Shown: piece after piece, positions 10,026-25,928 of the stretch
Numbering within the stretch: the first letter of the stretch is position 1
How the letters are laid out: each line of letters opens with the position of its first letter
Assembly (NCBI GenBank): GCA_913031305.1
Contig: CAJWEF010000012.1
Coordinates: 1-32,581 of the forward strand
DNA from: an uncultured Acidiferrobacteraceae bacterium
GTDB lineage: Bacteria > Pseudomonadota > Gammaproteobacteria > Arenicellales > UBA868
Reading direction: 5' to 3'
DNA: 32,581 nt
Translations under genes and position numbers: made by a program
The notes under the pieces: generated by a model
What the model saw: only the letters and a program-made list of their open reading frames with translations
The model's database searches: none
What the model was told of the DNA's origin: nothing

Positions 10026-11129
10026 TCAGTTAGTTACCTCGACGACATCAAGTGCCCGGCAGTCCTCCATAGACCAGCCGAACTTGACTATGTCTCCCTC
10101 ATTTAACGTCGCATGGTGCGACGCATTAGGGATTTTAACAATAAAATCGCTATGTCCGCAGACTGAAGCGCGGGTACGGATATGATCACCCAGATAGATC
10201 AATTCCTCTATCTTGGCCTCGAATAAGTTGGGAAATTTTCCAACTTCGGGATTCACTTCGACTCGCTCCGGACGCAGCGAAAGTGTGGCCCGGTCGCCTA
10301 CGGCGTCAACGTTGACTTTGAATGCCTGAACGTGCTCGCCGTTATCGAGTTCGACCTGGCAGTGATTCCCCTCGAGGCTGTGCACGAACCCCGTCAGCCG
10401 GTTATTCTCGCCGATAAACTGTGCGACAAATGCGTTCTCAGGCCGTTCATACAGGTCGTTGGGGGCTGCCAATTGTTGGATGACGCCATCATCGAAGACG
10501 GCGATACGGTTCGACATAGTCAGTGCCTCGGACTGGTCGTGGGTTACGTAGACGACTGTCACGCCGAGGCTTTCATGAATATGTTTAATTTCGTACTGCA
10601 TCTGCTCACGCAGTTGCTTGTCGAGTGCGCCCAGTGGTTCGTCCATCAGCACAAGGTCAGGATCAAACACCAGAGCCCGGGCAACGGCTACCCGTTGCTG
10701 TTGGCCGCCGGAGAGTTGGGCCGGACGACGGTTGCCAAACGCCCCGAGTTGTACCATGTCGAGTGCGCGCTTGGTTCGTGACTCAATTTCGGACTTGTTG
10801 AGTCTGCGGACCTCAAGCGGAAAGGCGAGGTTCTCATTGACCGTCATATGCGGGAAGAGGGCATAGTTCTGAAAGACCATACCGATTCCGCGTTTATGGG
10901 GTGGCACTGCGTTGATGGGCTGGTTACCCAGATAAATCTCACCATGGGTGGCCGGTTCAAAGCCCGCCAACATCATCAGGCAGGTTGTTTTGCCAGAGCC
11001 AGAGGGCCCGAGCATAGTTATGAATTCCCCCTGTTTGATATCCAGATTCAGGTTTTTAACGACAAGGGTTTCGCCGTCATAACTTTTCTGCACTTTTATG
11101 AAGCGGACAAAGAAATCCTGATCACTCAT
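10026..11129 (-). CDS. potA: Polyamine-type ABC importer, ATPase (PotA/PotG family)
   Basis: This is a 367-aa cytoplasmic ATPase and the first gene of the minus-strand transport series. Walker [10 protein letters not shown] (about residues 42-50), Q-loop [13 protein letters not shown], signature [15 protein letters not shown], Walker [13 protein letters not shown] and switch His VTHDQSEAL are all present. A C-terminal TOBE-like beta domain (from about residue 240, including [10 protein letters not shown]) is what sets PotA-like proteins apart from HisP. A good ribosome site (AGGAAGGG) precedes the ATG. The 314-base gap upstream must contain the promoter for the series. Confidence 0.9.
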
Positions 11130-11443
11130 TTGTGAGATTTTCCCTTCCTGGCTATAGTGCCGACAGATTACGTCGGTCTGGTATTATGTTTGTGGTAACC
11201 GTCGTAGATGCCTCAGTTTAGTAGGGTTTGCGGAGATTCTCAAGGTTTTAGCCCCCTTGGTTTTTGTGGTTTCTGTGGTTTCTGTGGTTTCATGCAAGTT
11301 TGCTCTAATGGAAGTGGGTAGTTTTATAAAAGGTTCTGAATAGGGCTATCAATCGTCCAGTTTTCGCGTTGCTACCAAAAGACGGATTACCAAGCTAGAT
11401 TGGTGCGACAACTTGATAACTAGGATATGGGTCGGCGAAGATC
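11130..11443. other. Intergenic region between divergent potA and ghrA-like genes
   Basis: This 314-base gap separates two divergent genes and should hold both promoters. On the minus strand a CATAAT hexamer (near 11184-11189) could be a -10 element, but no convincing -35 matches it. A short inverted repeat (CCGAC / GTCGG, 11160-11176) and a 9-base tandem repeat are the only clear structures. I see no ORF or RNA gene. Confidence 0.5.
11261..11290. repeat. Short tandem repeat, 9-base unit
   Basis: About three and a third copies of TTTCTGTGG lie in the potA-ghrA gap (first copy TTTTTGTGG, then two perfect copies and a partial one). Such a repeat may slip in length; whether it affects either promoter is unknown. 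Confidence 0.7.
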
Positions 11444-12388
11444 ATGTTGACACAAGACAACCCCGTGATACTGCTAAAAACGGATGCGCGTGATCCGGAG
11501 TGGATCAGTGCTCTTACTTGCGCGATGCCAGAGCTTGAGGTGCGTGTGTGGCCGCAGGTGGGGGATCCCAAGGAAATCAATTGCGCTTTATTGTGGAATC
11601 CACCGGTAGAACTTTTTAACGGCTTGGAGAACCTCGAGGTGATTTTCTCGATCGGAGCAGGAGTCGATTCACTGCTCGCCTGTTCAGCGTTGCCGGCCAA
11701 GGTGCCGATTGTGCGCATGGTGGAGCCAGAGCTCACGGCAGGCATGGTTGAGTTCTGCCTATTTCAGGTTTTAAGGTTTCACCGCCTGATGCACTGTTAT
11801 GAGCGCCAGAAGGCCCAATGCGTCTGGAAAGAGTTGCCTCAGTTACCGGCACGAGATACAACGGTGGGGGTGATGGGAATGGGCGTGCTTGGCTTAGCTC
11901 TCGCCAAACAACTCCAATTACTTAACTACAATGTGATTGGTTACCGTCGGCAATCAAAACCTAACGACGCGATAGAGATGTTTTATGGTGAGGCGCAGGT
12001 AGAGGCATTTCTGTGCCAGACAATGATACTGGTGATGTTGCTTCCAGCGACTGAGCAGACCCGGCATATTATTAGCCGGAAGACGCTTGCGATGTTGCCG
12101 CCCAAGGCATGCCTGGTTAACGCTGGCCGTGGCGAATCAGTCAACGAGCAGGACCTTCTTTGGGCGCTGGACAGCGGCCAACTTCAGGCTGCGGCACTGG
12201 ACGTATTTGGTCAAGAGCCGCTGCCAATCGATCATCCCTTCTGGTCACATCCGGGTATTTTTCTAACCCCACATATCGCCAGTATCACTCACCCACCAAC
12301 AGCCTGTCGCTATATCGCTGATGCGCTCCAGGCTTACCGCGCGGGAGGGGTCTGGCCTAACCTTGTCGAAACAGGATCAGGATATTAA
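11444..12388 (+). CDS. ghrA: D-2-hydroxyacid dehydrogenase, GhrA-like glyoxylate/hydroxypyruvate reductase
   Basis: This 314-aa cytoplasmic NAD(P)-dependent oxidoreductase reduces a 2-oxoacid such as glyoxylate or hydroxypyruvate. The Rossmann nucleotide-binding motif is GVMGMGVLGLALAKQL. Substrate and catalytic residues of the family are visible as the Arg in VNAGRGESV, the acidic residue region ALDVFGQEPLP, and the catalytic His in LTPHIASITHP. The N-terminal half (PELEVRVWPQVGDP, EVIFSIGAGVDSLL) matches the GhrA subgroup closely. Its ATG has only a weak purine stretch (GCGAAGA) as ribosome site. It stands alone on the plus strand between two minus-strand groups, so it is probably monocistronic. 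The symbol is by subgroup resemblance; the natural substrate is not certain. Confidence 0.85.
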   Translation: MLTQDNPVILLKTDARDPEWISALTCAMPELEVRVWPQVGDPKEINCALLWNPPVELFNGLENLEVIFSIGAGVDSLLACSALPAKVPIVRMVEPELTAGMVEFCLFQVLRFHRLMHCYERQKAQCVWKELPQLPARDTTVGVMGMGVLGLALAKQLQLLNYNVIGYRRQSKPNDAIEMFYGEAQVEAFLCQTMILVMLLPATEQTRHIISRKTLAMLPPKACLVNAGRGESVNEQDLLWALDSGQLQAAALDVFGQEPLPIDHPFWSHPGIFLTPHIASITHPPTACRYIADALQAYRAGGVWPNLVETGSGY

Positions 12389-12484
12389 AGGCTATTCAGG
12401 CAACTGCTGCGAGTACGTTCTGGCCTGGGCACAAAAAGATGGGAGTGACAACAGATTGTTGAAATAGTTGTCGATAAGACGCGG

Positions 12485-13708
12485 TCAGGCGCCTGATTCC
12501 TGTTTGGCCGATGTGGGCTCAGGTTCGGAGGCGATTTTTCGTTGGGTCATGACAGGGATCTGCTGTTGCAGGGCGATTCGCCATTGCCCGTTATCTTCCT
12601 TGACCCAGTACTGCTCCACGATATCAGTTTTTCCTGACCCCTTGAACTTTGTCGCCCGGGTGACTAGTTGTGTCTTGGGTCCGGGGTAGATAAAGATTTC
12701 GGTGAATTCGAGGCCACCGGCCTTGGCGCGCGCCTCTGGCAGATCGTGGCGGGAGATTTTGGTGAGATCCACAGTAATAGCTGCAGAGGAAGGTTCGACC
12801 TGCTGTTGTGAAGTTAATTGAGGGCCACCGTGAACGATGGCGAGGAGGTTTGCACGCAGGCGTTGCAGCTCTGCCGGAAAAATCCAGTCCGGGGTATCGT
12901 CGATGATAATCGGCAACTCATCGGCGGTTCCAAGCAGGCGATAAAGATTCCCAAAATCAGCATTACTTAATGTAATGCATCCTTCGCTCGCACGCGGCGC
13001 GCGGTTAATCCAGCCAGGCTCAGTCCCGTGGAGCCAGATCCCGTAACCGGTTCTGCGCAGTTGCTGATCGAGTGGGTTGGGATAATTGGTGGTCAGTGCG
13101 CCAGATCCGTAACGGGCATCGAGTTGACTTCCGGGAATATAGCCATTGATCCGGTAGACGCCTACCGGCGTCTTTAGGTCTCCCTCACGTTCTTTGCCGT
13201 AACCTTGCCGGCCAACTGTGACGTAAAAATCAGCCAGTCGTTGTAGCTCACCATGAATCTGTCGAAAAACATGGAGTCGCGCTGCGGGAAGATCGACATA
13301 AAGCACTGCCGTGTTTTCCAAAGAGACTTTGACCAGTTTCGCTGGGACCCGGTTGGCCTTGATCTCACGACTGCCAATGGCATGTTGCCATCGGAGACGT
13401 AGTTGCTCGCGCAGCTCTTGAGCACGAGCCTCTGATGAACGATCACTCAGATCAGGCAGTGAGCCTACTCGCCCGGCAAGGGCAAGTAGCAGGTCAGAAC
13501 GCAACAGGTGCCCAATGCGACTATCGGGGTAATCCTGAGTCAGAGCGTTTAATACCTTAAGTCCGACAGACCATTGTCCGGCGACAATATTCGCAGTGGC
13601 GCGAAGCAGGCGGGATTCATACTCATCCGAGGTTGCCCCGGCCAGTGCCATGCCGGGCGGCATCGTTATAACAAGCGCAAGCAGCAGGCGACGGGAAAAG
13701 CGCTTCAT
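12485..13708 (-). CDS. L,D-transpeptidase (YkuD domain) with C-terminal NTF2-like domain
   Basis: This is a 407-aa exported protein that makes or uses L,D-cross-links in peptidoglycan, or attaches proteins to it. It has a signal peptide (residues 1-23), a helical N-terminal part resembling TPR (about 30-110), the YkuD catalytic domain (about 132-275) and an NTF2-like C-terminal domain (about 305-390, TRATKFKGSGKTDI then VEQYWVKEDNGQWRI). The catalytic motif is IWLHGTEP (His227) ... RASEGCITLSN (Cys244), the HxG...SxGC pattern of the family. The NTF2-like tail is seen in a subgroup of Gram-negative L,D-transpeptidases related to YafK. It follows the TPR gene and the Sel1/SH3 gene on the same strand; all three are exported or envelope-facing, so a joint role at the cell wall is likely. 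Confidence 0.9.
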   Translation of the reverse strand: MKRFSRRLLLALVITMPPGMALAGATSDEYESRLLRATANIVAGQWSVGLKVLNALTQDYPDSRIGHLLRSDLLLALAGRVGSLPDLSDRSSEARAQELREQLRLRWQHAIGSREIKANRVPAKLVKVSLENTAVLYVDLPAARLHVFRQIHGELQRLADFYVTVGRQGYGKEREGDLKTPVGVYRINGYIPGSQLDARYGSGALTTNYPNPLDQQLRRTGYGIWLHGTEPGWINRAPRASEGCITLSNADFGNLYRLLGTADELPIIIDDTPDWIFPAELQRLRANLLAIVHGGPQLTSQQQVEPSSAAITVDLTKISRHDLPEARAKAGGLEFTEIFIYPGPKTQLVTRATKFKGSGKTDIVEQYWVKEDNGQWRIALQQQIPVMTQRKIASEPEPTSAKQESGA

Positions 13709-13778
13709 AAGTGTCCTTCGCGTCGGGTTTCGGGGATCCGGCAGGGCGCAAGTGTACCCGTTGGCTCCCGGCTTTCCA

Positions 13779-13800
13779 AACAGGGGCCAGTTCCCCTGTT
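13779..13800 (-). terminator. Hairpin after the TPR gene
   Basis: A perfect 8-bp inverted repeat (AACAGGGG / CCCCTGTT, 6-base loop) lies three bases past the stop of the TPR gene. No T-run follows on the minus strand, so it may be a weak terminator or an RNA-stability element before the L,D-transpeptidase gene. Confidence 0.45.
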
Positions 13801-13802
13801 AA

Positions 13803-14390
13803 CTAAGGGGTTACGGGCGGTAATCGCACACTGGAAAGCTCGCCCAGCGTAGTCAAGGGCTCTTTCTTGTCCGCTTGCGAATCGTCTGGGTTCATCGCAT
13901 GACGATAGGCGCGTGCGGCCTGTTCGGCGTAGACCTGAGAAAGGTTATCAAACAGAATACGATAAGAGGGGTCAGTATATAAACCAGCACGCAACAATGC
14001 TGCGGCCTGTTCCAGCTTGCCCTGCAGGCCATAAAGTCTTGCAAGATTATTGTAGGGTTCTGGACGCCCTGGATAACGGGTGATTAGCTCGCGGTAAGCC
14101 TGTTCGGCCTCATCGTGTCGTCCGCTAGCGGCAAACACATCAGCTCGTGCAAACAGTAGCTCGGTTGATTCACTGGTTCCTTTGTCAATAGTGGTTTCGA
14201 TCAATATCAACGCTTCGTTGTAGCGCTGTGACTTAAGCAGGGCTTGTATTTGTTCAAGTTCCGAAGCGGGTATTGTTGAGCTCAGCAGCATGCCAGCGCT
14301 GATGGCGAGCAGTGCGAGAAGACGGTGTCCCGGTTGTTGCCAACGATTCTTTGAAGAATCTGGTGTTCGTGTTTTAACGGGTCGCTTCAG
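13803..14390 (-). CDS. Exported TPR-repeat protein; start uncertain
   Basis: The ORF track gives 162 aa from an ATG at 14291. It contains about three TPR units, for example SAELLFARADVFAASGRHDE-like and EPYNNLARLYGLQGKLEQAA, with TPR signature Ala/Gly/Pro positions. The frame stays open upstream, and the residues there read RLLALLAISAGMLLSSTIPAS, a convincing signal peptide that the ATG start would cut in half. No ATG, GTG or TTG lies in this extension. The only usual-type alternative is a CTG at 14390, which gives a 195-aa protein starting (M)KRPVKTRTP and overlaps the end of the Sel1/SH3 gene by 17 bases, with GGGA 11 bases upstream. I give the longer form but the start is open. Partner of the L,D-transpeptidase gene that follows. 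Function unknown beyond protein-protein contact. Confidence 0.7.
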   Translation of the reverse strand: MKRPVKTRTPDSSKNRWQQPGHRLLALLAISAGMLLSSTIPASELEQIQALLKSQRYNEALILIETTIDKGTSESTELLFARADVFAASGRHDEAEQAYRELITRYPGRPEPYNNLARLYGLQGKLEQAAALLRAGLYTDPSYRILFDNLSQVYAEQAARAYRHAMNPDDSQADKKEPLTTLGELSSVRLPPVTP

Positions 14391-15990
14391 AACGAATCAC
14401 ATCCCAGCGCTTTTGCCAGTCGGGAGTGATAGCTCCCGGGGTCGTCAGTTGATCTTGTTTGATCCATCCCGCAACTGAGTTCAGTACCCGTAGACGGCTC
14501 CAGTCGCCCTTGCGACTGATAACTTCGACTTCAGTCCCCTTGTCAAGCAGTCCGAGCACGTCTGAGTCCGGTCCGGTTGATGGCAGAGAGCGAATTCGAA
14601 CCCGGTTATCGTTAATGTGAGCCCGCCCGCCGCTTTCCTTGACGAATTTGCCATAGACCCACACGTCCAGTCCCATAGGGCTCTTTATCATTATCCAGCC
14701 GTTCTTGCTGCCTATCACTTTGACTGTTATGCCCTTGTCCAAAAGACTGACTACCGGAGCGCCTGCATCCGGTCGCCCAACAACCGGGGCATTGTCAGTA
14801 GTGACCCAGGCGGTTTTGAATGGTGCAACCACGACTTCAGTAGGTGTCGATACGGGATTCGACCGGCTAGTCTGGCCTGGGTTTGCCAAGGCATTAAAGG
14901 TATCCAACCAGTCCTGGGTAGCCGGTTTTTGTAGCGCAAGGCCGGATTGCTGTGCCCAGTTCTGTAGTAGGTGCCCCGCGCTAATTTGTTTCCAATCGCC
15001 AGATTGGGCATGCACCGTAACCGCTGCACCTTTGTCGAGATGTAGAACTACTGATGAGTCGGCACCGGTTGTGGGATGCGTGCGTACCCGGACACGGTTT
15101 GCAGTAATGCGCCCATTGGGCGCACCCGCGACATATTTTCCAAAAACCCAAACCCTGGTTGGCGAAGGCAGTTCCAGTTGAGCCCAAGAGCCGCCGTACC
15201 GGATGATCTTGACCGGGCTTCCTTGTCTTAGTTTGCGGGTGGCAGGGGCTGACAGATTTGGCTGGGCACGGACGGTCAGGTGGCCACTTTGAACATGCGC
15301 TGCTGTGAAACTGGTATTGACGGTTTCCCCAGAAGCGGTGGGCACTGCTGTTTTCTCAGAGGACGAAGGCTCGGGTTGCGCAGTTTCGGAGCGAGTATCG
15401 ACAGAAGCTTTTGGTTTTGCCGGGGTGGCGGGTTGATCGTTTTTCACAGCGAGGTTGTTCTTGTCGATAATACCCAGTACGCGCTTGGCGTCGGCGTGCT
15501 GCTGTTCGGCAGATCTGCTCAGCCAGTCACGCGCTTTGCTGATATCGCGCTCAGCGCCTTTACCGAGGTAATACGCTAACCCGAGGTTGTACTGCGAGGT
15601 GATATCCCCAAGCTCAGCTGCACGTTCCCACCAGTCGACTGCCCGGGAGAAATTCTGCTTAACCCCTCGACCTTCCCAGTAGGCGACCCCCAGATTAAAC
15701 ATTGCTGTTGGATGCCCGGAATCTGCTGCTTTGCCAAACCACTCGATCGCCTGGTCCAGATCCTGGCTGACGCCTTTACCTTCATAGAAAGCAACGCCCA
15801 TGGCGTATTGAGCTTCCCGGTTGCCTTGTCGGGCGTGCGGTTCCCACAACGATACTGCCTTGGCATAGTCACCCGAGTTGTATGCGGCCACTGCCCGTTC
15901 CAGGTCTTCTTTTTGAGCCTGCACCATCGGGCTGGCTGCGAGCAGAAGGGCCAAAAAGGCAATTAATTTGATGTACCGGGAAGATTTCAT
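14374..15990 (-). CDS. Exported Sel1-repeat protein with duplicated bacterial SH3 modules
   Basis: This 538-aa protein has a signal peptide (1-25, cleaved after VQA) and four Sel1-type repeats (about 30-175; motifs YAMGVAFYEGKGV, FNLGVAYWEGRGV, YNLGLAYYLGKGA). A Pro/Ser/Thr-rich linker follows (about 183-230), then four SH3-like modules in two matching pairs (about 232-350 and 390-515). The pairs share VWV(F/Y)GK(Y/F)V, NRVR(V/I)R and LDKG..V.V, and each is followed by a DW-containing tail. Sel1 repeats bind proteins and bacterial SH3 domains often bind peptidoglycan peptides, so this is likely a periplasmic scaffold for cell-wall enzymes; that role is inferred. It is the first gene of a three-gene set with the TPR protein and the L,D-transpeptidase. 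Confidence 0.85.
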   Translation of the reverse strand: MKSSRYIKLIAFLALLLAASPMVQAQKEDLERAVAAYNSGDYAKAVSLWEPHARQGNREAQYAMGVAFYEGKGVSQDLDQAIEWFGKAADSGHPTAMFNLGVAYWEGRGVKQNFSRAVDWWERAAELGDITSQYNLGLAYYLGKGAERDISKARDWLSRSAEQQHADAKRVLGIIDKNNLAVKNDQPATPAKPKASVDTRSETAQPEPSSSEKTAVPTASGETVNTSFTAAHVQSGHLTVRAQPNLSAPATRKLRQGSPVKIIRYGGSWAQLELPSPTRVWVFGKYVAGAPNGRITANRVRVRTHPTTGADSSVVLHLDKGAAVTVHAQSGDWKQISAGHLLQNWAQQSGLALQKPATQDWLDTFNALANPGQTSRSNPVSTPTEVVVAPFKTAWVTTDNAPVVGRPDAGAPVVSLLDKGITVKVIGSKNGWIMIKSPMGLDVWVYGKFVKESGGRAHINDNRVRIRSLPSTGPDSDVLGLLDKGTEVEVISRKGDWSRLRVLNSVAGWIKQDQLTTPGAITPDWQKRWDVIRSEATR

Positions 15991-16014
15991 TTGCCTGTAG
16001 CTGCTTTCAATATC

Positions 16015-16617
16015 TTAGACCTGCGTGACTTGAATGATCTCGTGTGACCCATGCCAGATCATAGTGACGGCCACATAGAGTATTACGGCAAGCCCAATGT
16101 ACGCAATCCAGCGGTGGCGCTCAAGTAGGTGAGCCACCATGGTTGCGGCAAAAGCCATCAGACCAACCGACAGAACAAGGCCAATGACTAATATCAGCGT
16201 ATGATCGCGAGCGATCCCGGCAACTGCCAGGACGTTGTCCAAAGACATGGAGATATCTGCTAGGATGATCTGGAAGACCGCATGTTTCATTGATTTGGGA
16301 GCGGGCCTTGAAGCGGGGTTCGTGTCGGATTCAGATTGTTGAACGATCTGGAGTTCTCGCCACAGCTTCCAGCAAACCCACAGCAATAACAGCCCACCTG
16401 CCAGTACCAAACCAATAATTTGCAGCAGTTGTACGGTAACCAGGGCGAAGCCGATTCTGAGGATGGCTGCCGCTGCGATACCGATCAGGATTACCCGGGG
16501 CCGAAGTGGCGCTGGAACGGTGGCAGCGACCAGGCCGACAACAATTGCATTGTCGCCGGCCAGGACTAAGTCAACCAGGATAACCTGTAACAATGGCCAC
16601 AGTTGTTCTACTGTCAT
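16015..16617 (-). CDS. TerC-family integral membrane protein (YjbE type)
   Basis: This 200-aa inner-membrane protein has about six or seven hydrophobic spans. The two TerC acidic signatures are present: DLVLAGDNAIVVG in the first span and DISMSLDNVLAVAG in the second half. These Asp/Asn residues are thought to form a metal site, and relatives in Bacillus and other bacteria export Mn2+ or load it onto secreted proteins. The length and the hydrophilic middle loop (about residues 92-110) fit the YjbE subgroup. It is divergent from gcdH. No clear ribosome site is visible. The leader has a TATAAT and a hairpin with a T-run (separate entries). Confidence 0.85.
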   Translation of the reverse strand: MTVEQLWPLLQVILVDLVLAGDNAIVVGLVAATVPAPLRPRVILIGIAAAAILRIGFALVTVQLLQIIGLVLAGGLLLLWVCWKLWRELQIVQQSESDTNPASRPAPKSMKHAVFQIILADISMSLDNVLAVAGIARDHTLILVIGLVLSVGLMAFAATMVAHLLERHRWIAYIGLAVILYVAVTMIWHGSHEIIQVTQV

Positions 16618-19195: not shown

Positions 19196-20650
19196 CTAGC
19201 TGTTGACCCTGTTAAGCAGGCGGAACTGTACCGGGATCGTAGTAGTCGCCGGCGAGGCCGTGCCGTCCCTAATGGCAGGTGTAAATTGCCACTGCCGCAC
19301 AGCCTTTAAAGCTGCCTGGTCCAGGAGTTTTGATCCACTGGGCTTGCTGATCGATATCTCAGAGACTTTTCCTGACGCTGAAACGCTTACGGCAAGGGAT
19401 ACCTCGCCCTCCAGGCCCCGCCGGATCGCCAGGCGTGGGTACACCGGTTTGGGGTTACCTGCCACTGGGCGTGGGTCAGATTCGCGTAATGCGTTTCCCG
19501 TATCCAGGGCTGCAGCCGAGGGTTGAGCGCTCTGGATGGTTTGTTCGCTCTGAGCCCGAAGCGCTGTAGCCTCCTCGTCACTGATTTCAAGACGGGTTAC
19601 CAGTTCGATGTTTTCGTCTATCAGTCGATCACGCGACTGGGTTAGTTGAGTGATCGCAGCCTTAAGTACGGCTCTTTGGCGTCTATCGTCATTGTCGCTC
19701 TGGCGTAGGGCTGCAATCTGCCCCTGAAGAGATGTATTGGCGTTCGTTAATTCGACTTTCTTGGCAACCAGTCGATCGCGCTGTTCTTGGCTTTTGATAA
19801 AGCGATCATCGACAGCAGCCTTCTCCTTGGCCAGCCGATCTTTTCCCTGGCGCTCTGTGGCAAGATCTGCCGCAAGGCTTTTCGCGGCTTGCGCAGTTCT
19901 GGCGTTCTTTTCGGCCAGGCTGTCGCGCGTTGTAGTCAGCTTGACGATCGTCGTATTCAAAGCTACTACCTCATCCCTAAGCTCGCTGTCGTTTCGTTGC
20001 AAAGAGGCTGTCTGGTTTTTGAGATCCGCCTGTGCGGCTAGTAGTGAGGTGTACTTGGTTTTTAGCTGGTCATGGTGCTCGCGGACTGTGGTTAAATCGT
20101 CCTGGATAGCGGTTTTTTCTTCTACTAGCTGATCTTTTTCCTGTTTGGTCAAGACAAGGTTGGCTGCAATCCTGTAATTGTCCTGCGCCAGAGCCGTTTT
20201 TTCTTCGACGAGGTGCTCGTAGCTTTCGGCCATTGTCGCAACCTGTTGTTGCAACTGTGTTCTGTCAGATTCCAGATCAGAATGATTTTGCTCAAGGGCA
20301 ACTACGGCGGCCTTGAACTCTTCATTTTCTGATTGCACTTGGGTCAGGTCATTCTGGTTCTGCACCAGCCGTGTTTGCAATGACTCAGTGAGCGTCTTAA
20401 GTTGATCGTTCTCTTTTTTCAAAAGGTCGATCTGGTTTGAAAGGGCGGGGGAGTCAGGCGCTGCCACGGATGGCAAAGGAGTGTCACCCAGGTCCTGAGC
20501 TTCATCAATAAGTACCGCTTCGATCTGCGTGCGAAATGGCATTGCCGGGTCGAGTGACGGAACGGGAGCTACAGAACTCCAAAGGGCCGCTAAACCGGCG
20601 TGTAGCGCGGTTGACGCCAGTACCGCAGGGAGTAGTGCGCGGGCCCTCAC
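19196..20650 (-). CDS. TonB-like energy transducer with long coiled-coil spacer, under cobalamin riboswitch
   Basis: This is a 484-aa protein. A short basic N-terminus and one hydrophobic helix (about 6-26) anchor it in the inner membrane. Residues about 70-372 are almost unbroken coiled coil rich in Glu, Gln, Leu, Asp and Lys. Within it a phrase of the form RDRL..(E/K)K.. recurs at least five times (for example EKDQLVEEKTA, GKDRLAKEKAA, QRDRLVAKKVE, SRDRLIDENIE). Residues about 398-480 form a TonB C-terminal domain (PVYPRLAIRRGLEGEVSLAV, QAALKAVRQWQFTPA). The usual Pro-rich TonB spacer is missing; the layout recalls TolA, whose spacer is helical. A cobalamin riboswitch upstream on the same strand and the neighbouring btu genes suggest it energises BtuB. 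The start is GTG, overlapping the stop of a mini-ORF. No exbB/exbD is in the window. Confidence 0.85.
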   Translation of the reverse strand: MRARALLPAVLASTALHAGLAALWSSVAPVPSLDPAMPFRTQIEAVLIDEAQDLGDTPLPSVAAPDSPALSNQIDLLKKENDQLKTLTESLQTRLVQNQNDLTQVQSENEEFKAAVVALEQNHSDLESDRTQLQQQVATMAESYEHLVEEKTALAQDNYRIAANLVLTKQEKDQLVEEKTAIQDDLTTVREHHDQLKTKYTSLLAAQADLKNQTASLQRNDSELRDEVVALNTTIVKLTTTRDSLAEKNARTAQAAKSLAADLATERQGKDRLAKEKAAVDDRFIKSQEQRDRLVAKKVELTNANTSLQGQIAALRQSDNDDRRQRAVLKAAITQLTQSRDRLIDENIELVTRLEISDEEATALRAQSEQTIQSAQPSAAALDTGNALRESDPRPVAGNPKPVYPRLAIRRGLEGEVSLAVSVSASGKVSEISISKPSGSKLLDQAALKAVRQWQFTPAIRDGTASPATTTIPVQFRLLNRVNS

Positions 20651-20724
20651 TAGTTGACCACGTTTGTGCCTGTGCCCGGGTCAATTGGCCGCTTATCGAT
20701 ACTGGAAATCACTTCTCGTCTCAT
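20650..20724 (-). CDS. 24-residue mini-ORF overlapping the start of the TonB-like gene
   Basis: An ATG preceded by AGAGGA at good spacing opens a 24-codon frame starting MRREVISSIDKRP and ending GTGTNVVN. Its TAG shares its G with the GTG of the TonB-like gene (TAGTG), the classical shape of translational coupling. It lies between the cobalamin riboswitch and the gene, so the riboswitch could act on this start and pass the effect on. Alternatively, a frameshift at the overlap would give the transducer a longer cytoplasmic N-terminus. I do not recognise the peptide. It is too short to judge coding bias. Confidence 0.5.
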   Translation of the reverse strand: MRREVISSIDKRPIDPGTGTNVVN

Positions 20725-21125: not shown

Positions 21126-22121
21126 ATGCCAAAAACTGCCACAACCTTCCTTTTGAAAATTTCAATTTTGGGTTTTATCGCCCTTGCAGCTTTCGTTCTC
21201 GCCTTGACTATGGGTAGTGTTTCCATCGAGTGGGCCCAAGTGCTCGCTGGAGTTCGTGGCGAGCATCTATCGGTGGATTACGCTGTCGTAGTCCAACTGC
21301 GTCTGCCACGCGCATTGAATGCGTTTGTGGTAGGCGGGCTTTTGGGTCTTGCTGGGACACTGATGCAGGTGCTGTTGCGCAACCCGCTCGCGGATCCCTA
21401 TGTGCTGGGGGTTTCCGGAGGCGCCGCCGTCGCCGCCTTGTTGGCGATGATGCTTGGCTGGCACCAGGGCTGGGTTTCATTGGCAGCCGCAGGCGGTGCG
21501 CTTGGCTCTATGGCGTTGGTTTTTATACTCTCTCGTGGACAAGGCGACTGGTCGACCACCCGTTTATTGTTGACCGGAGTGGTGTTGGCCGCAGGGTGGG
21601 GGGCGGCCGTGAGTTTTATTCTTGTTGTCAGCCCGGACACCCATCTTCGTGGGATGCTGTTCTGGCTCATGGGAGATGTGCATGAATCATATCCTGGCGG
21701 GCTTCGAAGTGGAATACTGGCTGGCGCCCTGATCATTGCGCTCATTTCTGCCCGAATTCTCAATGTGTTGACCTTAGGTGAGTTACGCGCACAGTCATTA
21801 GGCGTCGATACTGGACTCGTTCGGCTGGGTTTGTTTCTGGTGGCTGGTATCCTGACCGCATCGGCCGTGACCCTCGCCGGCGCGATTGGCTTTGTTGGGC
21901 TGGTGGTGCCTCACCTGGTGCGTATATGGGGCGGGTCCGATCACCGTTTCGTGATACCAGCCTCGGTACTGGGAGGCGGCAGCCTGCTGGTGCTGGCAGA
22001 AATGTTTTCCAGAACCCTGCTTGCTCCAATCCAGTTACCTGTTGGCGTGATTACCGCGTTTGTCGGGGTACCATTGTTTCTCCTATTACTGCGCCGCAGT
22101 ACGGCTCCGGTGGTTCGCTGA
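21126..22121 (+). CDS. btuC: Cobalamin ABC importer, permease (BtuC, FecCD family)
   Basis: This 331-aa inner-membrane protein has about ten hydrophobic spans. FecCD landmarks are QLRLPRALNAFVVGGLLGLAG, MQVLLRNPLADPYVLGVSGG, FWLMGDVHESYPGGL and GFVGLVVPHLVRIWGGSDHR. It forms a dimer that carries vitamin B12 from the periplasm with BtuD and BtuF. Iron-siderophore permeases share this fold; B12 is chosen because two cobalamin riboswitches, btuB and a BtuF-like protein surround it. Its TGA overlaps the btuD ATG by one base. Confidence 0.88.
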   Translation: MPKTATTFLLKISILGFIALAAFVLALTMGSVSIEWAQVLAGVRGEHLSVDYAVVVQLRLPRALNAFVVGGLLGLAGTLMQVLLRNPLADPYVLGVSGGAAVAALLAMMLGWHQGWVSLAAAGGALGSMALVFILSRGQGDWSTTRLLLTGVVLAAGWGAAVSFILVVSPDTHLRGMLFWLMGDVHESYPGGLRSGILAGALIIALISARILNVLTLGELRAQSLGVDTGLVRLGLFLVAGILTASAVTLAGAIGFVGLVVPHLVRIWGGSDHRFVIPASVLGGGSLLVLAEMFSRTLLAPIQLPVGVITAFVGVPLFLLLLRRSTAPVVR

Positions 22122-22885
22122 TGTCGATCGCGTTGCAAAATCTCAGTATTGAGATCAGCGGTACCCGGATCTGCCAGGGCCTCGATCTTGAATTCTCGAC
22201 CGGTCAGGTCTGGTGTGTGCTGGGGTGTAATGGGGTTGGCAAAACTACCCTGCTTAAAACTCTGGCGGGACTCCGGCCTCCGAACTCAGGCAACGTTCGA
22301 CTCAATGGGCGGCCGGTTCAAAGGGTCGCGCGGCGACAGCGGGCACAGCAACTCAGCATATTGTTTCAGGACAGCGAAACACTGTTTCCGACTACAGTGC
22401 TTGAGACCGTGCTGACTGGCCGTCATCCGTGGATCAACCCCCTGCGAGGGGAGAGCGCGCACGACCGTGACAAGGCGATGGCCGCACTGGAACGCGTAGG
22501 CATGGCGCACCTGGCGGAACGCAGTATGTCTTCTTTATCGGGCGGTGAACGGCGCCGGGTGGATCTCGCTGCAGTCTTCGTCCAGGAGTCCGAGTGTGTT
22601 CTGCTGGATGAGCCTGGCAACCATCTGGATATGCACCATCAGGTCGCGGTGCTTGGCGGGATGGTGCAGCAGTGGAAAAGCCAGGGTGGACTGGTAATTC
22701 TGGTGATGCATGATGTGAACCTTGCGCTGCGCTTTAGCGATCATCTGCTGTTGCTGTTTGGCGATGGTGAGGTGGAGCATGGACCAGCCCAGGCCATAGC
22801 CACTGAGACGACATTGACCCGGTTATACCGTCACCGGATGATGTCTTTGGATGCCCCCCAGGGGCGTTGGTACCTCCCGGCCTGA
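22121..22885 (+). CDS. btuD: Cobalamin ABC importer, ATPase (BtuD)
   Basis: This 254-aa cytoplasmic ATPase is the partner of BtuC. Motifs are Walker A GCNGVGKTT, Q-loop LFQDSETLFPTTV, signature SSLSGGERRRVDLA, Walker B CVLLDEPGNHLD and switch His VMHDVNLALRF. The ORF track starts at 21926, but that part overlaps the end of btuC in another frame and is not family-like. The ATG at 22121 overlaps the btuC stop (TGATG), giving coupling and the correct family length. A GGxGxG-like variation is seen in Walker A, where Cys and Asn replace the more usual Pro and Asn, still functional in appearance. Confidence 0.9.
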   Translation: MSIALQNLSIEISGTRICQGLDLEFSTGQVWCVLGCNGVGKTTLLKTLAGLRPPNSGNVRLNGRPVQRVARRQRAQQLSILFQDSETLFPTTVLETVLTGRHPWINPLRGESAHDRDKAMAALERVGMAHLAERSMSSLSGGERRRVDLAAVFVQESECVLLDEPGNHLDMHHQVAVLGGMVQQWKSQGGLVILVMHDVNLALRFSDHLLLLFGDGEVEHGPAQAIATETTLTRLYRHRMMSLDAPQGRWYLPA

Positions 22886-22920: not shown

Positions 22921-22938
22921 TGCGCGGTTATCCCTGCT

Positions 22939-23125
22939 GGTTACCTGTTTCTACGTGAGGCAGGTAAACGGGAAGCCGGTGCGCACGATCTGTGCAATTC
23001 CGGCACTGCCCCCGCAACGGTAGGTGAGGACAGGATGTAGCACCAAGCCACTGCGGCGTAGGCCGTGGGAAGGCGCGCCATCCCGCACTCAGGTGCCCTC
23101 ACAAGTCCGGAGACCGACCAGTAGT
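22939..23125 (+). promoter_or_regulatory. Cobalamin (B12) riboswitch upstream of btuB
   Basis: The conserved blocks appear in order on the plus strand: ACGGGAAGCCGGTGCG, CCGGCACTGCCCCCGCAAC, AAGCCACTG, GTGGGAAGGCG and the B12 box AAGTCCGGAGACCGACC (23103-23119). It covers most of the 344-base btuD-btuB gap. The remaining 100 bases before the GTG start form the expression platform. Ends are approximate. Confidence 0.95.
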
Positions 23126-23229
23126 GGACCCAATGAAACCGCGTGGGGTGGTGACGGGTTGTGGTTATGCGCAACACCGCTGGTCCCTTCCTCGCATTAA
23201 GTGCACGGGTGGCGCGCAAGGAGTAGTCA

Positions 23230-25032
23230 GTGAAAAACTTTTCGATTAGTGGGATCCCCGCTGTTGTTGTAATTCTTTTTTTAACGGTTCTGTCAGTCCA
23301 GGCCGCTGACCCGGTCATCGTGACTGCAACACGCACTGCGCAGACGGCTGACGAGGTGCTGGCCCCGGTTACCGTAATCTCGCGTGAGGATATCGAGACC
23401 AGTGCGGCTCGAGACCTTGGAGAGTTGCTGTCGTCCCAGGTTGGCCTGGAGGTTACCCGTAACGGCGGCTACGGAAAAAATACCAGCGTTTTCATGCGCG
23501 GCACCAATGCCGGTCATGTGTTGACACTCGTTGATGGTATCAAATTGTTTTCCGCCACTGTAGGTGCGACTGCTTTTCAGTTTCTTCCTCTTGATCAGAT
23601 TGAGCGCATTGAGATTGTCCGCGGGCCCAGATCAAGTCTTTACGGTTCCGAGGCGCTAGGCGGCGTAATCCAGATCTTCACTCGCAAAGGGGGTGATAGG
23701 CGCGAAGCGCATGCCGAAGCGGGTTATGGTACCTACAACACGGCGAACGCCGGGGTTGGTATCTCGGGCCCGGCTGGCGATAGTCGCTTCAGTGTCCAGG
23801 TCGATGTGATCGATACTGATGGGATCGACAGCACTGTAGGCGCTCAGAGCGATAAAGACGGATATGACAATACCTCGCTCAGCGCCCGATGGAATGGGCC
23901 CACATCTGATGGGGCTGGCGAGCTGGATCTTTCGTTGCTGTACGCATCCGGAAATACCGGTTTTGATAATCCCTGGGCAGGTCCGCTGGTGGTTAACGAC
24001 TCGAGCTACGCGCAGCAGGTGCTGAATCTGAAGTGGCGCACCGATGGAGACGGTGGATGGAGTCATACGATACAGACCGGGCAGAGCCGTGATGATTCCA
24101 AGACCTTTGCAGATAACGTCTCAGACGGAGAATTTAACACCACTCGCAATCAGGCCAGTTGGCAACTGGATTGGCCCGTCGCCGAGGTTCATTTACTGAC
24201 AGGTGGAATTGATTACGCGGATGATTCGGTTGATGGATCGGTCAGTTACGATCTGAGCTCACGGTCGAACCTTGGCCTGTTCGGACAATGGCAGGGTGGT
24301 TACGGCAACCAGGATATGGTGGCAGGTTTGCGGTTTGATGACAACGAACAGTTTGGCAGCCATTTCACCGGCAATCTGGATTATGCGCTGTCAACCGAAA
24401 GTGGGCTGCGCTTTAACGCGGGTTTAGGCACTGCGTTCAAGGCGCCCAGTTTCAACGACCTGTATTACCCGGGTTTTGGCAACCCGACCCTTGAGGTGGA
24501 GTCATCTACCTCTTATGAAGTCGGAGTAAGTGGTGACGCAGGACCAGGCTCATGGGCGCTTCGTTGGTTTAATACCGATATTGAAGATCTGGTAGCTTAT
24601 GATCCGCTCACCTATGCCCCAGTGAATCTGGATCGCGCGGCAATTGATGGCTTGGAATTGGACTGGTCTGGGAAACTATCGGGCTGGCAGGCCGCAGTAG
24701 GTATCGCTCTAATGGACCCAAAGGATAAGGCGACTGGCCATCAGCTGGCGCGCCGTGCCAAGCAATCCGGCAAAGTACGGGTTGATCGACGTAGCGGCGA
24801 GTGGCAGTACGGATTGAGCGCCGCCTATCACGGTAAGCGCTACGATGATAAAGCCAACACGGTTGCTTTGGAGAGTTATACCCTGATTGACGGCGGAATT
24901 ACCTACGCCCTGGGTAAAAAGTGGCGGCTTCGGATCGAGGCGAACAACCTACTAGACGAGTCTTACCAGACGGCTGCGGGTTTTCGCGAGCCCGGACGGA
25001 ATTTTCTCGCCAGGGTGGTATTTCGCGACTAG
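23230..25032 (+). CDS. btuB: TonB-dependent outer-membrane cobalamin receptor
   Basis: This 600-aa outer-membrane beta-barrel takes up vitamin B12. The signal peptide covers residues 1-25 (cleaved after VQA). The TonB box DPVIVTATRT follows at once, resembling the BtuB type. The plug domain has VTVISREDIETS, VFMRGTNAGHVLTLVDGIKL and RIEIVRGPRSSLYGSEALGG. The barrel then runs to the last strand, which ends RNFLARVVFRD, with an aromatic near the C-terminus for outer-membrane insertion. Length equals that of E. coli BtuB. The start is GTG with AAGGAG six bases upstream. A cobalamin riboswitch in the leader fixes the substrate with confidence. The gene ends two bases before the convergent btuF stop. 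Confidence 0.95.
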   Translation: MKNFSISGIPAVVVILFLTVLSVQAADPVIVTATRTAQTADEVLAPVTVISREDIETSAARDLGELLSSQVGLEVTRNGGYGKNTSVFMRGTNAGHVLTLVDGIKLFSATVGATAFQFLPLDQIERIEIVRGPRSSLYGSEALGGVIQIFTRKGGDRREAHAEAGYGTYNTANAGVGISGPAGDSRFSVQVDVIDTDGIDSTVGAQSDKDGYDNTSLSARWNGPTSDGAGELDLSLLYASGNTGFDNPWAGPLVVNDSSYAQQVLNLKWRTDGDGGWSHTIQTGQSRDDSKTFADNVSDGEFNTTRNQASWQLDWPVAEVHLLTGGIDYADDSVDGSVSYDLSSRSNLGLFGQWQGGYGNQDMVAGLRFDDNEQFGSHFTGNLDYALSTESGLRFNAGLGTAFKAPSFNDLYYPGFGNPTLEVESSTSYEVGVSGDAGPGSWALRWFNTDIEDLVAYDPLTYAPVNLDRAAIDGLELDWSGKLSGWQAAVGIALMDPKDKATGHQLARRAKQSGKVRVDRRSGEWQYGLSAAYHGKRYDDKANTVALESYTLIDGGITYALGKKWRLRIEANNLLDESYQTAAGFREPGRNFLARVVFRD

Positions 25033-25034
25033 GC

Positions 25035-25928
25035 CTAGCCTGACCCACGGGCCCGATCAATGATTTGGCAAAGTTCGCGCATCCCTTCGAGGATTCTAGG
25101 GGAGTGTCGGTGCAGGTGGTCCGAATTGACGATATAAAGGCGCTCATTCGCAACGGCATCGACCTGGTCCCAATTTGCCCAGTGATCGAGCGCTCGGTGT
25201 GACCCTCCGGTGCCGTCTCCGGCAATTATTACCGCGGGGTTACGGCTGATAACTGACTCTCGGGATACCGTGGGGGCGATGTCCGACAGGTTCGCGAATA
25301 CATTGCGCGCCCCACAATCTTCAAGCAGACGGCTAACGAGGTGATTGCCATTCAGGGTTATCAGAGGGTCATGCCAGACCTGGTAGAAGACTTCTATGAG
25401 CTTCTTGCGATAAAAGGTTTTACGGATTGACCCGGCTTCTTCAAGAAACTGACCCGCCAGGCGATTAGCTGTTTTGTCATTGCCGGTCAACTTGCCGATT
25501 CGGACCAAGGTACTGGCGATAAGGGCCAGGGTCGCCGGCTCAGCTCGGTAGACGGTGAGCCCGAGTTGTTCGAGGCGTGCCACCAGTGCCGTGGGATTAC
25601 CACTCTCCCAGGCCAGTATCAGATCGGGTTGTAGCCGGAGGATTGTTTCAAAGTCGAAACGACTATGGGATCCGACGCGTGGCACCTGCAGTGCCGCTGG
25701 CGGGTAATCGCTATGATCTACCGTGCCGACCACCCGGTCTCCCGCGCCGATAAAGAACAGGATCTCAGTCAGGTTTGGAGCCAGGCTGATGATACGCTGG
25801 GCCGGCGTGCTCAGTTGAATTTGTGCGTGAGTATCATCTAACACCTGCACGGGCTCGGCATCGGCCTGGATGAACCATCCTGATAACAGGACACTCAGCA
25901 GCGCACAGATAGACAGATGGGCTTTCAA
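25035..25928 (-). CDS. btuF: Periplasmic cobalamin-binding protein (BtuF)
   Basis: This 297-aa protein of the helical-backbone (family 8) binding proteins should deliver B12 to BtuCD. The signal peptide is about 1-24. The opening RIISLAPNLTEILFFIGAGD and the segment VDHSDYPPAALQVPRVGS with FETILRLQPDLILAW are the BtuF/FhuD-like N-lobe. The C-lobe has ARNVFANLSDIAPTVSRESV. The start is a TTG, the only usable one giving the full signal peptide; ribosome site is weak. It faces btuB tail to tail and follows coq7 by 34 bases in the same direction, so it is probably transcribed with coq7 rather than with the riboswitch genes. Confidence 0.85.
   Translation of the reverse strand: MKAHLSICALLSVLLSGWFIQADAEPVQVLDDTHAQIQLSTPAQRIISLAPNLTEILFFIGAGDRVVGTVDHSDYPPAALQVPRVGSHSRFDFETILRLQPDLILAWESGNPTALVARLEQLGLTVYRAEPATLALIASTLVRIGKLTGNDKTANRLAGQFLEEAGSIRKTFYRKKLIEVFYQVWHDPLITLNGNHLVSRLLEDCGARNVFANLSDIAPTVSRESVISRNPAVIIAGDGTGGSHRALDHWANWDQVDAVANERLYIVNSDHLHRHSPRILEGMRELCQIIDRARGSG

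Follow-up and report, generated by a model that had tools for sequence, protein, structure and literature searches.

A TonB probably dedicated to vitamin B12, with a coiled-coil domain II of exceptional length, in a family of uncultured marine bacteria

We describe a probable B12-dedicated TonB, a protein of an already known kind, which carries an exceptionally long coiled-coil domain II and belongs to a family of uncultured marine bacteria. The gene (19196..20650, minus strand) is located in the window, that is, the whole stretch of 32,581 nucleotides that was analyzed, and encodes a protein of 484 amino acids from a GTG start. The identity of its domains, its linkage to genes of B12 transport, and its association with cobalamin riboswitches are well supported. 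We consider it likely that the explanation as a whole is correct, namely that this protein works as a dedicated energy transducer in a Ton system which serves one receptor for one vitamin.

Domain Organization of the TonB Protein

The tonB ORF is real, its frame being open for 484 amino acids from the GTG start; a relative (L034) has an in-frame stop two codons 5' of the equivalent GTG. A TonB_C domain was detected at residues 400–478 (19217..19453, minus strand), where the last 80 residues of the protein matched PF03544 over 79 of its 79 model positions with a score of 88.2 bits (cut-off 24.6 bits). TIGR01352 agrees with this assignment (79.5 bits). The closest solved structures to the C-terminus are also TonB C-terminal domains. 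The predicted fold reached a TM-score by target of 0.86 against the FoxA–TonB structure 6i97 and a TM-score of 0.86 against the BtuB:TonB complex of E. coli (2gsk), whereas domain III of TolA was far behind as a fold match (E 0.2 or worse). Thus, both sequence and fold identify the C-terminal domain as that of TonB and not of TolA, in agreement with the first-pass annotation of this DNA.

The N-terminal membrane helix proposed in the same annotation was found at residues 7–22 of the AlphaFold2 model (20585..20632, minus strand). It contains Ser13 and His17, both of which are invariant in 18/18 aligned homologues. Such an S-x3-H pair forms the core of the SHLS motif by which TonB and TolA dock on their motors (PMC12204202, PMC10907165). 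On the basis of position and conservation, a candidate D-box or motor box, FRTQIEAVLIDE (residues 39–50; 20501..20536, minus strand), was assigned as the presumed ExbD-binding strand (the D-box is described in PMC10907165). Homologues have a conserved EAVLID-type segment at the expected place, and this region is disordered in the AlphaFold2 model.

The Coiled-Coil Domain II

The spacer of this protein had been proposed to be a coiled coil some 300 residues long, and several lines of evidence bear this out. Residues 70–369 (19544..20443, minus strand) form about 43 heptads in one dominant register. No proline is present across residues 69–376, and the Pro-rich periplasmic spacer which is typical of TonB, but not universal, is absent from the window TonB. 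Within residues 70–369, heptad position d is occupied by Leu in 67% of cases and by one of ILMVFYW in 84%. When compared with 2000 shuffles of the spacer, the hydrophobic excess at positions a and d over these 300 residues was 2.65 versus 0.57 +/- 0.23 (maximum 1.60), which corresponds to z = 8.9. In sliding windows, the phase stayed nearly the same throughout the coil and was left only briefly past approximately residue 266. The same heptad pattern, shifted in phase one to three times, was found in most homologues (z 4.6–9.3), the weakest being L053 (z 2.3) and L056 (z 3.2). AlphaFold2 predicted two helices in the window TonB (residues 70–216 and 228–369, mostly with pLDDT of ~76–87) and two in the homologue L058 (72–244 and 251–442). 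By its appearance, the window spacer resembles coiled coils that self-associate, and it is probably a stiff, dimeric element that does not depend on having an exact length.

A straight helix of 300 residues measures approximately 45 nm, which is roughly twice the width of the E. coli periplasm. A straight coil of this size would therefore have to tilt, bend, or fold. One way of folding is a monomeric antiparallel hairpin, in which two helices of ~145 residues form a thick strut about 20 nm long. The kinks in the AlphaFold2 models, at residues 217–227 of the window TonB and 245–250 of L058, divide each coil into nearly equal arms whose length would suit an ordinary periplasm. A monomer would also be compatible with the observation that an ExbD dimer binds just one D-box (PMC10907165), with which a dimeric TonB sits awkwardly. 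However, the breaks fall at positions that do not correspond between the two proteins, and a strong heptad register crosses both of them, with neither proline nor a glycine loop there. Furthermore, a hairpin would return the C-terminal domain toward the inner membrane, and the models that contain the breaks have a total pTM of only 0.25 (window TonB) and 0.33 (L058). We therefore did not accept the hairpin as demonstrated, and regard it as an unlikely arrangement of the spacer.

Spacer Length among Relatives and across the Class

Domain II, which comprises ~370 residues in the window TonB, ranges from 168 to 456 residues among homologues (2.7-fold), and the coiled-coil spacer of relatives measures between about 100 and 390 residues. 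The coil itself is retained in nearly all members of the family. One locus, L052 (9823–10665, minus strand), lacks most of it and has a domain II of 168 residues versus 456 in its genus-mate L054; both a true deletion and an assembly collapse could account for this. In the tonB of L055, residues 5–160 of the partial ORF contain an internal duplication of 77 residues (11 heptads) within the coil. We also considered whether the spacer grows or shrinks by whole heptads. This idea was rejected since the length differences between members are generally not multiples of seven, and no such rule is claimed despite the repeat in L055.

In a published survey of proteobacterial TonB proteins, domain II had a median of 113 residues and a maximum of 245, and was mostly Pro-rich and sometimes helical (PMC12204202). 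Our own survey of the class sampled 232 genomes, and 20 long-frame TonB_C proteins were examined among the approximately 165 best-scoring matches listed. None of these 20 proteins, among the matches listed, has a Pro-free stretch of more than 121 residues before its C-terminal region, and an Rfam scan of 12 of these long-frame loci detected no cobalamin riboswitch (0/12).

Other TonB_C proteins were also noticed and are described here by eye. In L143 and L145, the domain ends proteins which resemble membrane peptidases of the BlaR1/M56 type. In L067 and L068 (family f10), it is present in proteins with a long N-terminal domain that looks cytoplasmic and receiver-like (response-regulator), followed by a membrane helix near residue 180–200 and then by TPR-like helices.

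Cobalamin Riboswitches and the btu Locus

A cobalamin riboswitch (RF00174; 20805..21000, minus strand) was identified by cmscan upstream of tonB, with a score of 105.8 bits (E 9e-26; gathering score 31.5 bits) over the full model (positions 1–189). It is on the same strand as tonB and lies 154 nt 5' of the start codon, which substantiates the riboswitch originally proposed from the letters of the window. The second one (22921..23136, plus strand; 106.0 bits) lies upstream of btuB. Between the two riboswitches are btuC (21126..22121, plus strand), encoding a B12 ABC permease (PF01032) whose best NCBIfam match is BtuC, under the equivalog cut-off, and btuD (22127..22885, plus strand), encoding an ABC ATPase (PF00005) and assigned by its position after btuC. 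The btuB gene (23230..25032, plus strand) matches TIGR01779 (TonB-B12) with 525 bits, below the equivalog cut-off of 599.7. It is followed by btuF (25035..25928, minus strand) for a periplasmic B12-binding protein (PF01497), the best NCBIfam match of which is BtuF with 152.7 bits, again under the cut-off. A candidate TonB box, DPVIVTA (23308..23328, plus strand), could be read at the N-terminus of mature BtuB; we take it to resemble the DTLVVTA of E. coli BtuB.

This arrangement is conserved. A cobalamin riboswitch is present directly 5' of tonB, on the tonB strand, in all 23 family loci that have upstream DNA (23/23). Exactly two such riboswitches were found in the window genome, before tonB and before btuB, and every family genome with any cobalamin riboswitch has exactly two (27/27). 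In the family loci read, one riboswitch of each pair precedes tonB and the other precedes btuB. Six family genomes gave no match; in two of these (G021 and G022), a TonB of the window kind is located at a contig end and its upstream DNA is missing. Wherever family contigs reach, tonB is flanked by btuB and by genes for a CoA-transferase and an acyl-CoA dehydrogenase, and btuC, btuD, and btuF either adjoin tonB or are only a few genes away. Two gene orders occur in the family. One is that of the window; in the other (e.g., L038), tonB and btuB are divergent genes, whose riboswitches lie side by side and point in opposite directions. Linkage of the homologues to btuB and to riboswitches, which the first-pass annotation had proposed as a check of its reading, is thus a general feature of the testable family loci.

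The region of the tonB expression platform showed no excess of RNA fold stability over shuffles (z = -0.03). Our search of the open-access literature found no description of a tonB controlled by a cobalamin riboswitch or of a coiled-coil B12 TonB.

A Leader ORF between the Riboswitch and tonB

An addition to what was first noticed in this DNA is a short leader ORF, MRREVISSIDKRPIDPGTGTNVVN (20650..20724, minus strand), whose stop codon TAG overlaps the GTG start of tonB. A purine-rich, Shine-Dalgarno-like sequence, GCAGAGGA, is located 5' of it. Among the 23 family loci, 20 others also have an upstream ORF whose end overlaps the start of tonB as ATGA, GTGA, or TTGA. In L040 and L044, the frame opened by this leader start continues into that of tonB. 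The leader has 23–27 codons and a good Shine-Dalgarno sequence in most members of the genus, and as few as 7 codons in some relatives within the family. Its place and overlap are kept across the family (window, L034–L059), whereas the peptide sequence differs between subgroups. Considering this conservation, and that no obvious ribosome-binding site was found at tonB itself, the arrangement suggests that translation of tonB is coupled to the leader ORF.

Receptors, Transducers, and Motors of the Genome

The window genome, which is 91% complete, has a single Plug domain match, and this is BtuB, the sole TonB-dependent receptor found. Within the genus, 14 of the 18 genomes having any Plug match have only one, and the other four have 2–4. 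Because of the 91% completeness, absences in the window genome are provisional, and a receptor or transducer may have been missed. Three TonB_C proteins were found in this genome: the B12 TonB, TolA, and a protein of 268 residues (L078:1128-1934, minus strand). The gene for the last adjoins YqgE- and YqgF-like genes, a position which we take to recall that of PA0406/TonB3 in P. aeruginosa. ExbD was detected twice, once as TolR and once in an ExbB–ExbD pair that is separate from TolQR and adjoins an MsbA-like ABC gene. CbiC was not found in this 91%-complete genome, and seven B12-binding domains were detected, which together are consistent with B12 scavenging. With conserved synteny and riboswitch, BtuB as the sole receptor found, and only two riboswitches, the proposal that the protein is a transducer dedicated to B12 and BtuB has gained in strength.

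A different interpretation is that this is a general-purpose TonB which is long and helical by chance and happens to lie near btu genes, its helix being selectively neutral. It is known that domain II is structurally variable and that E. coli can cope with exchanged domains, even with a disordered linker (PMC10666116), and helix-dominant domains II have already been reported (PMC12204202). Homologue length also varies widely, and L052 is without most of the coil. However, the riboswitch and btu linkage is present in all testable family loci, BtuB as the sole receptor in most genomes of the genus leaves no general clientele, and almost every member retains the coil. We therefore consider a general-purpose TonB improbable. 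That the protein is instead of the TolA type, acting in envelope stability with B12 control being secondary, is largely refuted and highly improbable, since its long helical spacer, its weak match to TolA_full (25.1 bits), and an IxAVxxD motor-box sequence that presumably resembles TolA stand against a TolA cut-off of 59.45, a separate TolA in the tolQ-tolR-tolA-tolB cluster of the same genome, and a C-terminal fold far nearer to TonB; membership in TolA was rejected.

The TolA of this genome also bears on the suggestion that the long spacer serves a wider periplasm. Its spacer comprises only 108 residues of Lys/Ala/Glu repeats. If 108 helical residues are enough for TolA to contact its outer-membrane partner, 300 are not needed to span the periplasm; in view of this and of the range of domain II in the homologues (168–456), we rejected the idea of a wider periplasm. 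The accompanying idea of a TolA-like rigid spacer was right in that both proteins have long helices, but TolA has no hydrophobic heptad (z = 0.7), whereas the TonB coil has z = 8.9.

A Proposed Model of the B12 Ton System

Returning to a dedicated B12 transducer as the most likely interpretation, we propose the following model. When B12 is scarce, the two cobalamin riboswitches would permit expression of BtuB and TonB. TonB would be translated by coupling from the leader ORF, which bears the ribosome-binding site, with re-initiation at tonB, such that the riboswitch may control the site of the leader. The membrane helix could then dock via Ser13 and His17 on the only non-Tol ExbB/ExbD pair of the genome, and the strand just past this helix could be captured by ExbD. 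The C-terminal domain would grip the TonB box of BtuB and pull the plug open, after which BtuF and BtuCD would carry B12 onward. The coiled coil of ~300 residues probably makes TonB a parallel dimer, in which rigidity rather than exact length would matter. When B12 is plentiful, BtuB and TonB would be shut off together, which could be afforded because the window TonB has no other client.

Experiments in E. coli have shown that deletion of domain II abolishes the function of TonB, that swapped or disordered spacers are partly functional, and that structure improves force transmission (PMC10666116). A stiff coil that tolerates changes in length fits these exchange and rigidity experiments. We are more tentative, at somewhat below even odds in our own estimate, about the fullest version of the model, in which TonB works only as a parallel coiled-coil dimer that exceeds the periplasm in length and its expression is tied to that of its sole receptor by paired riboswitches and a coupled leader peptide. 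If true, each transducer would possess its membrane anchor, ExbD-binding strand, and receptor-binding domain in duplicate, and the dimer might bridge a pair of ExbBD motors or a pair of BtuB receptors, or use half of its domains.

How force is transferred across the periplasm, how many copies of TonB act on each motor, and whether the length or the rigidity of the spacer matters are unsettled in the TonB field. Here, nature offers a Ton system that has a single receptor for a single substrate, apparently only one ExbBD pair, and a coil which varies in length among relatives. Length could therefore be separated from rigidity in this system, and the function of a dimer could be tested directly.

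Comparison with Other B12-Linked TonBs and Known Systems

Another family of this order, f11 (L064, L065, L066, and L069), likewise has tonB genes linked to cobalamin riboswitches. The tonB of L065 (8151–10232) has a cobalamin riboswitch approximately 245 nt upstream, and that of L064 (8050–10365) is located behind one riboswitch, after btuB, a btuF-like gene, btuC, and btuD. In family f13 (L063), a riboswitch is followed by btuB, btuC, btuD, and then a TonB of normal length. A TonB linked to B12 is thus broader than the window family, whose own trait is the coiled coil. These loci add an energy transducer to the cobalamin riboswitch regulon in at least two families, that of the window and one more. 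L065 has two further cobalamin riboswitches in the region 10318–16086, one before genes which by eye are CobN-type cobaltochelatase-like and one before btuB, and a piece of a group II intron nearby (2726–2940).

The f11 TonBs share with the window TonB the riboswitch link and a very long domain II. However, their spacers of 660–790 residues are acidic, contain proline, lack heptads, and are disordered. In the tree of C-terminal domains, family f1 forms one supported clade (95/82), which includes one long-branch outsider and is apart from f11. A common origin of the two was not accepted, as f1 and f11 are in separate supported clades whose deeper order is open.

Among well-known systems, the TonBs of E. 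coli and Pseudomonas have in common with the window TonB the S-x3-H helix, the strand region following it, and a C-terminal fold that binds the TonB box. They differ in having a Pro-rich spacer and being general genes, whereas the window TonB has a coil of ~300 residues, riboswitch control, and one receptor client. TolA domain II of gammaproteobacteria is likewise a long alpha-helical periplasmic spacer, but its Lys/Ala/Glu helix has no hydrophobic heptad, and it occurs with a different C-terminal domain in the tol-pal context. Dedication to a single receptor is also seen in HasB of Serratia, a TonB paralogue (PMC3602595, PMC9008036). HasB is devoted to haem and exists beside a general TonB, whereas the window TonB, under its cobalamin riboswitch, has BtuB as its receptor, and we found no clientele for a general TonB. 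The helix-dominant TonBs (Williams-Jones et al. 2025; e.g., A. avenae) also have an alpha-helical domain II; theirs comprises at most 245 residues and has no reported link to a riboswitch (PMC12204202), whereas the domain II of the window TonB comprises ~370.
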